Below, in pieces: positions 52,464 through 55,331 of a stretch of 64,000 bases of DNA; position 1 is the first letter of the stretch; each line of letters opens with the position of its first letter. The position numbers were made by a program, and so were the translations under genes. Source of the DNA: Halorubrum sp. 48-1-W (lineage in GTDB: Archaea > Halobacteriota > Halobacteria > Halobacteriales > Haloferacaceae); NCBI RefSeq assembly GCF_003287355.1, contig NZ_QMIM01000010.1:62001-126000 (forward strand). The letters are read 5' to 3'. A model generated the notes under the pieces. It was not told where the DNA came from, did no database searches, and worked only from the letters and a program-made list of their open reading frames with translations.

Positions 52464-53168
52464 GTCTCCCCCTGTCTCGGCTTGCCCCCTAACCGTTCCG
52501 GAGTCGGTTCGGTTCGTGTCAACAGATGTCATGATCTCTGTTCGATCTGCGCCACATAAACCATATATTGCGATACCAAATTGTGGGTCCGTCCGAAACA
52601 CCACAGCTCCGGAGGATGGGCCCGTTTCGAGGCGTATCGAGTCGATACAAGGGTGCTGCTTACCGATCGAGTACTCGAGTCGTCGTCCACGTGTGAGGAG
52701 GCCGCATCGTTCGACGGTCCGTGTGCTCTCGACCCGTCCCGTCTCGTAGCCGGCCCAGCCGAACGTCCCCTGGAAGGAGATCGCGCGGACCAGCGGGAGC
52801 ACTCCCGTCACGCTGGCACCTGCTCTCTTCGCCCGGCGGCCCGCCAATACACATCTACTTTTTACGGTTCGTTTGGTGTCATGCCCGGTCATCCGTTCCG
52901 ACGTATCGTTCGACATCCGCTCGAGTTCGTAGACGTGTCCGTGTAAACGAACTACGATAACGACGAGGTCCCCGGATCCACGCTGTAGTGATCCGGAGAA
53001 TGAGGTGGATAAACGCCCGAAAAGACGAGCCCTGGGAACGATCTCGCTGGATGTCGGACGCGCGTCTTCGTTCAGATCTGTCGCTCTCATCGATCCGCTC
53101 TCGTTCGAACGTGTTTCTCTACTCGAATTCGGAAAGACGATTGAGCGATCGACCAAACGAGTTAAGTC
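52464..53168. other. About 700 bp without a recognised gene
   Basis: Several reading frames of 60-120 codons exist, but none has haloarchaeal codon bias, acidic composition or a family match. AT-rich spots occur at 52553-52585 (promoter-like for the MBL gene, about 90 bp upstream of it) and at 52855-52875. A GTAAACGAACTACGATAACG stretch at 52944-52963 and the sequences at 53070-53170 are also less GC-rich than average. The region may be degraded mobile DNA or hold an RNA; nothing specific is supported. Confidence 0.5.
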
Positions 53169-53190
53169 ATATCGGGTTATATCGATATGT
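53169..53190 (+). promoter_or_regulatory. Promoter/operator of the metal efflux module
   Basis: The palindrome ATATCGATAT (53179-53188) ends 2 bp before the ATG at 53191. It is preceded by CATATCGGG (53169-53176), and a variant TGTCGATAC follows, giving repeated ATATCG/CGATA half-sites around the start. The TTAAGT at 53162-53167 is a TATA-like element 24-29 bp upstream. An ArsR repressor bound here would block initiation; this is inferred from layout. Confidence 0.55.
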
Positions 53191-53328
53191 ATGTCGATAC
53201 TCAACCGATTGCTCGGCGGCGAGTCGAACGACGAGGAGAGTTGCTGTGACATACAGATCGAGGAGGTAGACGCCGACGAACCCGCGGAGGATGCGCCGAA
53301 CGGGAGTGCCGATCGCACGGAGGACTGA
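53191..53328 (+). CDS. 45-residue di-cysteine protein
   Basis: A micro-protein beginning MSILNRLLGGESNDEESCCDIQIEEV. It has an amphipathic N-terminal helix, a vicinal Cys18-Cys19 pair and an acidic tail. Vicinal cysteines can bind soft metals or arsenite. It lies 6 bp upstream of an ArsR gene and belongs to the same likely transcript as the efflux permease, so a metal-carrier role is a reasonable guess. The ATG at 53191 is chosen because the leaderless promoter and palindrome sit directly before it; a longer upstream frame lacks such support. Confidence 0.7.
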   Translation: MSILNRLLGGESNDEESCCDIQIEEVDADEPAEDAPNGSADRTED

Positions 53329-53334
53329 CCGGCG

Positions 53335-53733
53335 ATGTCGAACGACCCGAACGCGGCAAGCCGTGCGGGCTCGGAATCCGCCAGCGGAACGCTCCGACGG
53401 ACGGAGGAGGGAACCTGCTGTGACGGTCCGTTCCCGGCGACGCGACGCGCCGAGGACGCGGCCATCGAGGCGGAGCTGTCGTCGTTCAAGGCGCTGGCCA
53501 ACCGAAAGCGGCTCGCGATCGTTCACGCGCTCCGGGAGGGCGAGCTCTGTGCCTGCGAACTGGAGGCCGTGCTGGACGCGCCGCAGTCGACGGTCGCGTC
53601 CCACCTCCGGAAGCTTCGCGACGCGGGTATCGTCAACACTCGTAAGGACGGGAAGTGGACGTACTATCGGATCGCGGACACGGCGAGCCTCCAACTGCTC
53701 GATCTGGCCGCTGCGCTGGGAGAGGATCGATGA
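53335..53733 (+). CDS. ArsR-family metal-responsive repressor
   Basis: A 132-residue winged-helix regulator. The N-terminal extension carries a vicinal pair Cys28-Cys29 (EGTCCDG). The alpha3-type motif ELCACEL (Cys72, Cys74) is the classic metal or arsenite site, and QSTVASHLRKLRDAG is the recognition helix. Binding of metal would release DNA and open the operon. Its stop overlaps the permease start (ATGA), so the regulator and the pump are coupled. The metal is not determined; arsenic, zinc and copper are candidates. Confidence 0.88.
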   Translation: MSNDPNAASRAGSESASGTLRRTEEGTCCDGPFPATRRAEDAAIEAELSSFKALANRKRLAIVHALREGELCACELEAVLDAPQSTVASHLRKLRDAGIVNTRKDGKWTYYRIADTASLQLLDLAAALGEDR

Positions 53734-54731
53734 TCCCAGCGGGAACCGAATCGGCATTGCTCGATTCGTGGGACTACTTCCTCCACCTCGCGATGGTCCT
53801 CACGCCGCTTTTCATCGGCGCGTCGTTCCTCGTCGGCCTCGCACAGGAGTACCTCCCGCCCGAGCGCGTCGAGGAGATGCTTCGATCGCGCGACCACGGG
53901 AGCGGGAACGTCCTCGCAGCGGGACTCGGCGCCGTGACGCCGTTCTGCTCGTGTTCCACCGTTCCCGTCCTGGCCGGTCTGCTGGGTGCCGGCGCGCCGA
54001 CGGGTATGGCGTTTTCGTTCCTGATCGCCTCGCCGATCGTCAACTGGATCGCCGTGTTCCTGCTCTTTGGACTGTTCGGGACCGCCGTCACCGTCGCGTA
54101 CGTGACGACCGCGCTACTCGCGGCGATCGTCGCGGGGCTGGTCATCGGGATGCTCGACCTCGACGGCTACGTCAAGGACGTGCGGATCACGGCCGGGGGC
54201 CGCGAGATCGAGACCGACGGCGGCGCGCCCGCGCCGGGTGCCTCGTCGACGACCGGCGCTGAGTCCGGCTGTTGTGAGTGCGCGACGGACGCGACGAACC
54301 GGACCCACAAGGAACGCGTGACCGCGGCCGGGAGGGGCGCCCTCTCCTTCTTCCGCGACACGCTTCCCTACATCGCGATCGGGATCGCGATCGGCGCGCT
54401 GATCCACGGGGCCGTGCCCGCGGAGTTCCTCCAGCGGATCGCGGGGCCGGAGAATCCGCTCGCGACGCCACTGGCCGCGCTCGCCGGCGCGCCGATCTAC
54501 GTGAGCATCAGCGGGATGTTGCCGATCGCCCACTCGCTCACCGAGGCGGGGATCCCGATCGGCACGGTGATCGCGTTCGTCGTCGGCGGTGCGGGGATCA
54601 GCATCCCGAACCTGATCCTCCTGAACAAGCTGTTCGAACGGCGATTGCTCGCGATCTACGCGACGACCGTCGTGACGATCGGGATCGCGATCGGCGTGTC
54701 GTTCAACACCGTCTTCGTCGGCCTGCTCTGA
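53730..54731 (+). CDS. ArsP/SO_0444-type metal(loid) efflux permease
   Basis: A 333-residue membrane protein of the DUF318/ArsP superfamily with about eight helices and two homologous halves. The conserved PFCSCSTVPVLAGLLGAGAP (Cys73, Cys75) in the first half is the family metal motif. A cytosolic loop contains ESGCCECATDATNRT (Cys181, Cys182, Cys184), as in SO_0444-type copper/zinc or organoarsenic exporters. ISGMLPIAHSLTEAGIPIGTV is the matching block in the second half. It is translationally coupled to the upstream ArsR. Substrate ion uncertain. Confidence 0.88.
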   Translation: MIPAGTESALLDSWDYFLHLAMVLTPLFIGASFLVGLAQEYLPPERVEEMLRSRDHGSGNVLAAGLGAVTPFCSCSTVPVLAGLLGAGAPTGMAFSFLIASPIVNWIAVFLLFGLFGTAVTVAYVTTALLAAIVAGLVIGMLDLDGYVKDVRITAGGREIETDGGAPAPGASSTTGAESGCCECATDATNRTHKERVTAAGRGALSFFRDTLPYIAIGIAIGALIHGAVPAEFLQRIAGPENPLATPLAALAGAPIYVSISGMLPIAHSLTEAGIPIGTVIAFVVGGAGISIPNLILLNKLFERRLLAIYATTVVTIGIAIGVSFNTVFVGLL

Positions 54732-54746
54732 CCCGGCGTTTCTCGT

Positions 54747-55139
54747 TCAGGGCGACCGCGAGCCGTCGAGCGCGGCGAGGACGGCGTTCGCCCGCGGCGT
54801 GGCGCGATACATCCGCCACTTCCCCGCTTTCCGGCGCGTGACGAGCCCGGCGTCGGTGAGCTTCGAGAGGGCGTGGCTGATCGCGCTTTCGCTCACGTCC
54901 AAAAGCGGCGAGAGCTCGCAGACGCACAGCTCGTCGTCGGCCGTGTGGAGCATCCGAACGATCTCGTACCGCGTCTCGTTCCCGAGCGCCGACAGGAGTT
55001 CGACGTCGCTCTCGAGGTCGGACCCGTCGATACCCTCGTTCAGCTCCTCCAGTTCCGCGAGCCGTTCGGAGAGCTCCTCGTCCGTACAGGAGCCGTACTC
55101 GGCGGCGACGTACCGCTGTAGACGATCGGTCGATGACAT
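54747..55139 (-). CDS. Second ArsR-family metal-responsive regulator
   Basis: A 130-residue winged-helix protein with ELCVCEL (Cys72, Cys74), the same metal motif at the same residue positions as the ArsR on the other strand. Its recognition helix is ESAISHALSKLTDAG. The N-terminus is different: Cys18 only, and a helical Glu-rich lead-in. Only 15 bp separate its stop from the permease stop, so the genes converge. Two ArsR proteins around one pump suggest either cross-regulation or separate targets. A hairpin relic lies 16 bp before its start. Confidence 0.88.
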   Translation of the reverse strand: MSSTDRLQRYVAAEYGSCTDEELSERLAELEELNEGIDGSDLESDVELLSALGNETRYEIVRMLHTADDELCVCELSPLLDVSESAISHALSKLTDAGLVTRRKAGKWRMYRATPRANAVLAALDGSRSP

Positions 55140-55155
55140 ACACGCGAGTCAACTA

Positions 55156-55192
55156 CCCCACCCTAAAGGCCTTCGGCGTTTTGAGGGTGGGG
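55156..55192. mobile_element. Imperfect palindrome, possible IS200/IS605-type end relic
   Basis: CCCCACCCT (55156-55164) pairs perfectly with AGGGTGGGG (55184-55192). The 19-nt loop has inner complementarity AAAGGCC...GGC-TTTT. On the complement the sequence reads ...TTTAGGGTGGGGTAGTTGAC, which I recall as a common end of haloarchaeal IS200/IS605-type elements. No transposase gene is present. It sits in the spacer between the second ArsR and nnr and may alter the promoter of either. Origin is a memory-based inference; the palindrome is directly visible. Confidence 0.5.
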
Positions 55193-55331
55193 CTTGTCCG
55201 TGAACTCGGCCTCGAACCCGTCCGGGTGGGCGTTGAACCGAGGCGAGATTAATCGTTATGGACCGTCAGGTCCCAAGTCACCGCACGCGGGGAGCCACCA
55301 CCGTTATGCCCGTCACCCACGGATCGCCGGT

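Follow-up and report, generated by a model that had tools for sequence, protein, structure and literature searches.

The stretch of DNA analyzed here, referred to as the window, comprises 64,000 nucleotides of the archaeon Halorubrum sp. 48-1-W (contig NZ_QMIM01000010.1, positions 62,001 to 126,000 of the forward strand). It carries a four-gene cassette encoding a 45-amino-acid protein with vicinal cysteines (hereafter the microprotein), two ArsR/SmtB regulators (ArsR1 and ArsR2) and an ArsP-type permease, and our central result is that the microprotein and permeases of this clade are inherited together in archaea and bacteria. Loci, genomes and contigs are cited by our own handles, and the features of the window are as follows:

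53152..55142, no strand: four-gene cassette, about 85% identical in DNA to the same four genes in arsenic islands.
53168..53189, no strand: perfect palindrome CATATCG-N8-CGATATG (7+7 bp, 22 bp), the sole match in the window even when 3 mismatches are allowed.
53191..53328, forward strand: microprotein, 45 aa, MSILNRLLGGESNDEESCCDIQIEEVDADEPAEDAPNGSADRTED, core CC-x-[VIM]-x-I-E-E, conserved and without a Pfam or NCBIfam family.
53335..53733, forward strand: ArsR1, ArsR/SmtB metalloregulator (NF033788, 93.8 bits against a cut-off of 55).
53730..54731, forward strand: permease of the ArsP_1 family (PF03773, 196 bits against a cut-off of 32.3, residues 19-326), with TPFCSCST and a CCxC loop.
54747..55139, reverse strand: ArsR2, second ArsR/SmtB regulator (NF033788, 82.8 bits against a cut-off of 55).
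55145..55232, no strand: repeated element of 86-88 bp containing an inverted repeat (CCCCACCCT...AGGGTGGGG); the genome has two further copies at 98-99% identity (contigs C66 and C67).

A preliminary description of this DNA had named a palindrome at the first start codon, a 45-aa protein with vicinal cysteines, an ArsR with two cysteine pairs, a permease that overlaps this ArsR and has its own CC-x-C loop, and a convergent second ArsR sharing the ELCxCEL site, and all of these parts are present between 53168 and 55139. The palindrome ends one base before the ATG of the microprotein, directly downstream of a TATA-like ttaagt, the vicinal cysteines of the microprotein are C18 and C19, and ArsR1 and the permease share 4 bp where the one gene stops and the other starts.

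The microprotein opens with a short hydrophobic stretch, frequently rich in K in bacteria; a linker that varies leads on to the CC-x-V/I/M-x-I-E-E core, and an acidic or K/E-rich tail closes the chain. C18 is invariant and C19, I23 and E24 are nearly invariant in an alignment of 20 haloarchaeal copies, and the CC pair is invariant in 30 bacterial and archaeal copies. Comparison of the window copy with its relatives yields a dN/dS of 0.16-0.34, indicating purifying selection; a second copy occurs in the same genome (contig C23), and on every sufficiently long contig of the relatives the significant match precedes ArsR1 and the permease. Because of this selection, the two copies in one genome and the recurrence at the same locus across many genomes, the microprotein goes beyond chance and, on the strength of these comparisons, is taken to be real and conserved. 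Scans of Pfam and NCBIfam returned no family that consistently matches it or its relatives, the ArsD model NF033727 matches neither, and the HcsS and HcsL models do not match the microprotein, whose CC pair is internal (residues 18-19) and not C-terminal; no description of this small protein was found in the literature. In Halorubrum ezzemoulense and Halobacterium sp. BOL4-2 its RefSeq annotation is 'hypothetical protein', and on the Halocatena marina plasmid NZ_CP109980.1 a copy directly upstream of ArsR and the permease (L098 3366-3593) has no gene listed in what is an incomplete gene table. AlphaFold predicts one short helix (residues 3-9), with the remainder at low confidence.

The association with the permease was surveyed in 29 haloarchaeal loci encoding permeases of this clade across the class, and 27 of them have the microprotein, 25 with a clear CC pair (one of these, G021/L038, truncated) and two with CGC or CEC variants (L058/L074, L059); L060 and L061 have none. 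A wider set of 80 loci, belonging to methanogens and to many groups of bacteria, was obtained by a GTDB genome scan with a permease alignment, and it is not a random sample of ArsP_1, since its members were chosen as the best matches to the methanogen permease L087, which itself has a microprotein. Small open reading frames (ORFs) built like the microprotein follow the permease in bacteria, mostly at a distance of 12-70 bp, and precede it in methanogens. In a test free of hand-picking, a hidden Markov model (HMM) built from the 20 haloarchaeal copies only was run on every small ORF in these loci (7,808) and gave 43 matches at E<=1 in 43 loci, all 43 on the permease strand and 42 beside the permease, against 2 among shuffled ORFs. 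With a wider HMM, partly trained on the 80 loci, and with long fusions (L148, L164) and L136 added to the positives, the microprotein is found in 54-55 of the 80 loci (54 in the scored set), L178 and L179 being uncertain (transposon, short contig end). Each of six bacterial genomes searched whole contains a single match, at the permease. Within one bacterial order (148 genomes), the five genomes with a microprotein are exactly the five whose permease is at least 46% identical to the query, and none was found in two genomes with a permease at 40% or in about 70 with permeases at 25-36%. The two genes adjoin in four of these five genomes. Plasmid searches returned mostly enterobacterial relatives, and no comparable small gene appears in the gene tables, themselves incomplete, of the three gammaproteobacterial regions inspected.

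The anatomy of the module and the co-inheritance of microprotein and permease are therefore matters of observation. The preliminary description held that permease genomes without the microprotein would speak against a partnership; tested on both sets of loci, this objection fails for this permease clade, and the evidence supports an efflux module for soft metal(loid)s in which microprotein and permease are genuine partners. The microprotein probably supplies a missing working part of the export system. The fifth genome of the order above, G617 (L213 1495-1755; L219), has an unlinked microprotein, and the loop of its permease contains CCEVEAEE, which resembles the microprotein core.

The core also occurs with CxC instead of CC (L142, L159, L190, L214-L216), as tandem CC units (L157, L165) and, in some members, with a second CC at the C-terminus. 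Fusions join the microprotein to an ArsE-type thioredoxin domain (L158, L163, L164; PF13192 tested for L163 and L164), to DUF2703 (L148; PF10865, E 6.5e-39) and, on one side or the other, to an unnamed domain (at the N-terminus in L134, L136-L138, L140 and L141, at the C-terminus in L161). The thioredoxin-like and DUF2703 fusions, the tandem CC units and the CxC variants point to a putative thiol metal site. The unnamed domain spans about 70 aa, ends in ...IPxxAExxYxxALLREY, has no Pfam match in the members scanned, and is encoded by separate genes beside permeases in L124-L129, L131 and L132. Another small protein, with a CxxC...CxxC arrangement and an end of CC or CC plus one residue, stands beside the permease in Methanosarcina-type and related archaea (L080 1864-2031, L092 1881-2042, L134, L136-L138).

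The permease contains C73 and C75 within TPFCSCST and C181, C182 and C184 (CCxC) in its central loop; C73, C75, S76 and T77 are invariant in a 20-member alignment. Its predicted model has a mean pLDDT (predicted local distance difference test) of 81, and the loop at residues 165-187, which holds CCxC and is read as disordered, falls below 50. A sequence search for a solved homologue found none, and a fold search of the model against the PDB gave nothing better than E 0.12; what resemblance there was to proteins of the NaS1/VcINDY type was weak (probability 0.8, template modeling score about 0.4). The SO_0444 label of the preliminary description did not stand, as the permease reaches 123.2 bits against the cut-off of 300 for NF033936; with the SaoE model NF040736 at 106.7 against 325, membership in either family was rejected because both scores lie under the curated cut-offs. 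A third PF03773 permease of this genome (G000:C60:172486-173499, L095), about 57 kb from the window copy, belongs to another subfamily, and its central loop contains a stretch of YHS/TRASH-like sequence (DPTCGM...FCSEGCMETY).

Cysteine content of the permease loop varies with the presence of the microprotein. Across 79 scored loci, loops with at least three cysteines occur in 2 of the 54 with a microprotein versus 15 of the 25 without (Fisher p 6e-8), and the mean number of loop cysteines is 0.87 versus 3.28; the two haloarchaeal permeases without a microprotein have 3 and 6. The pattern is suggestive of a loop that tends to be Cys-rich where the microprotein is absent. A microprotein motif inside the permease loops was considered and rejected, as the look-alikes are isolated and too few (CCSVDFEA in L186, CCEVEAEE in L219, CCGATIEA in L160).

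In ArsR1, an N-terminal C28-C29 pair accompanies C72 and C74 of the ELCACEL motif (residues 70-76), whose counterpart in an alignment with the solved protein Lmo1102 is ELCVCDI. The C28-C29 pair, which may supply extra ligands of the CadC type, is kept in one clade and absent from the clade with ECCGCEL. ArsR2 has C18 together with C72 and C74 in ELCVCEL. Both regulators thereby have the CxC of the alpha-3 cysteine site (ELCVCDL type), on the helix that precedes the recognition helix. The palindrome is conserved over the microprotein start in haloarchaeal genera, roughly as ATCG-N8-CGAT and in degenerate form in distant genera; this is as would be expected of an ArsR operator at a leaderless start, and we infer binding of ArsR1 and regard the palindrome as its probable operator. 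Within arsenic islands, ArsR2 is divergent from a cupin-arsD-arsA operon, and it is confined to the Halorubrum/Halobacterium island form, most haloarchaeal loci being without it. The earlier suggestion that two sensors set the range is not borne out by this distribution, and ArsR2 is best read from its context as a leftover of the source island whose partner operon was lost here. MarR-like (L160, L167-L171, L178, L183, L195) and PadR-like (L130, L133, L139, L147, L148, L150) regulators precede the same permeases in other loci, instead of or besides ArsR, and vicinal CC pairs in several of those read suggest that soft-metal sensors may have been recruited convergently.

The module lies inside arsenic islands in Halorubrum ezzemoulense, Halobacterium sp. 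BOL4-2, several relatives and the second copy of this genome. One side of the island holds RidA and in some cases also ACR3 and an MIP channel; the other holds a cupin, ArsD, ArsA, HcsL, HcsS and low-molecular-weight phosphatases (arsenate-reductase-like). In L111 the order is ArsR2-ACR3-phosphatase-microprotein-ArsR1-permease. Within about 3.5 kb of the 80 wider loci, tblastn found ACR3 at 19, an ArsE-type thioredoxin at 26 and DUF2703 at 9. In blastn comparisons with L102, L097 and L103, the homology of the window copy to island DNA runs from 53151-53152 to 55142 in each case, and the four genes are for this reason delimited as a discrete cassette without the arsDA part; the window copy is such a cassette, excised from an arsenic island. 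The 86-88 bp repeat begins 3 bp past the right edge (55142) and is perhaps the end of a mobile element.

Taken together, we favor, at a probability of about 0.55, an ArsR-regulated efflux module for a thiol-binding toxicant in which the microprotein would serve as the dedicated dithiol carrier of the ArsP-type permease. ArsR1 bound to the palindrome over the leaderless start would block transcription until metal binds its cysteines; the vicinal cysteines of the microprotein would then bind the toxicant and present it to the invariant TPFCxCS site of the permease, perhaps via the CCxC loop, with the hydrophobic N-terminus possibly contacting the membrane. Such a hand-over to the loop would be consistent with the loop-cysteine data, and we infer a metallochaperone-like part, similar in role to that of ArsD, for a protein outside every named family tested. 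For the toxicant, the likeliest candidate is a trivalent arsenical or another soft metal(loid) of related kind; arsenic is our best guess. Among characterized relatives, the ArsP of C. jejuni exports MAs(III) and trivalent roxarsone and not arsenite (PMC6205960), SO_0444 protects against Zn and Cu, its mutant being sensitive to both (PMC3219624), and a relative is induced by Cd and Cu (PMC10092412).

Several observations weigh against this reading. Phylogenetically independent pairs split only 9 versus 1 with 7 ties (p=0.02), a pairing in which L098 was entered as lacking a microprotein that it has (correction removes one tie), and for this reason the loop-cysteine relation is held to be suggestive and unproven; moreover, haloarchaeal permeases mostly combine the microprotein with two loop cysteines. 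Outside Halorubrum and Halobacterium, a search within about 8 kb turned up none of the other ars genes sought at the majority of haloarchaeal loci, and a different soft metal could therefore be the substrate. This genome has no arsenite methyltransferase ArsM above the NF008823 cut-off; the presence of ArsM would support, without defining, a methylarsenite exporter. The short helix of the microprotein has a pLDDT of about 63 and is thus of low confidence, and the hydrophobic moment of the N-terminus does not exceed that of shuffles in most members tried, which reduces membrane anchoring to a guess. In G021 (L009 1501-1650; also L038), a TAA directly after CCDM cuts the microprotein while ArsR1 and the permease are intact.

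Other functions for the microprotein account for part of the same evidence. It might only buffer the toxicant, as a minimal metallothionein-like holder acting until the permease clears it and without any hand-over, a role compatible with a small, acidic dithiol protein and one for which the several CC units of some copies (L157, L165) would raise capacity; however, most copies have a single CC pair, which is poor for buffering, there is one copy per genome, at the permease of one clade only, and the loop-cysteine relation suggests a function tied to the permease, which makes this alternative unlikely. Slightly less credit still is due to a redox helper whose CC pair, with thioredoxin-like ArsE or DUF2703, would reduce the arsenical or keep the permease cysteines reduced before export: the fusions to Thioredoxin_3 (ArsE-type) and DUF2703 speak for it, as do the ArsE-type genes near 26 of the 80 permeases, but an adjacent CC pair is generally a poorer disulfide catalyst than CxxC, the CxC, CCCC and tandem CC forms fit metal binding better, and at most loci no such partner accompanies the microprotein within the flank searched.

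The short hydrophobic N-terminus of nearly all members and the strict operon linkage would also suit a small regulatory or assembly subunit that binds the permease through this N-terminus and uses CC as a local metal switch instead of for carriage. This we consider improbable, given that so short an N-terminus can all but disappear (as in L193, 25 aa, MVGKKKEKKKKGCCDLVIEEIKDEE) and that the CC-IEE core is the most conserved part. That the microprotein is the first ORF past promoter and operator in haloarchaea could indicate a leader peptide or a chance ORF conserved through the underlying operator or RNA; conservation at the amino-acid level (dN/dS about 0.2), the position of bacterial copies downstream of the permease and the fusions to folded domains led us to reject this explanation as effectively excluded.

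Permeases of the ArsP_1 family rank with the most widespread exporters of arsenic and metals, and which substrate each subclade chooses is not clear. Should one clade depend on so small a dithiol partner, assays of the permease by itself in a foreign host could miss its activity, a required gene is overlooked or goes without a name in automated annotation, as on the Halocatena marina plasmid, and a minimal carrier motif is there to be studied. The carrier of a secondary-type metalloid permease would then be built from little beyond one CC-x-V-x-I-E-E motif, overlooked through its small size. As a tentative extension that we would not yet expect to hold in full, a large archaeal and bacterial ArsP-type clade may use a detachable dithiol arm of about 40 residues, evolutionarily interchangeable with a Cys-rich permease loop or a fused thioredoxin-like domain.

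Among known systems, the C. jejuni ArsP resembles the present permease in being an ArsP-type protein found with ACR3 in ars operons, as here in islands (PMC6205960); compared by description and not by alignment, it has no small CC partner in the literature found. The Cu/Zn transporter SO_0444 is a homologous permease whose NCBIfam model matches ours below cut-off, is predicted to be under a ZntR-like regulator in contrast to ArsR here (PMC3219624), and has a Shewanella relative (L194) without the microprotein. HcsL and HcsS (halo-CC-star, NF041416 and NF041415) are likewise small haloarchaeal CC-pair proteins of the same arsenic islands, but their CC is C-terminal, they show no sequence match to the microprotein, and they were not seen beside the permease outside islands. 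The MTH895/ArsE-type and DUF2703 proteins are recurrent neighbors of the same permeases and are also fused to the microprotein domain; these folded thioredoxin-like domains co-occur with the microprotein and do not replace it (L146). A further parallel is ArsD, also a small dedicated vicinal-cysteine protein encoded with an efflux system and adjacent to the module in islands. ArsD is larger and folded (about 110 aa) and serves the ATPase ArsA as an arsenite metallochaperone, whereas the microprotein, mostly 25-70 aa, has little predicted structure, bears no sequence relation to ArsD and is partnered with a permease.

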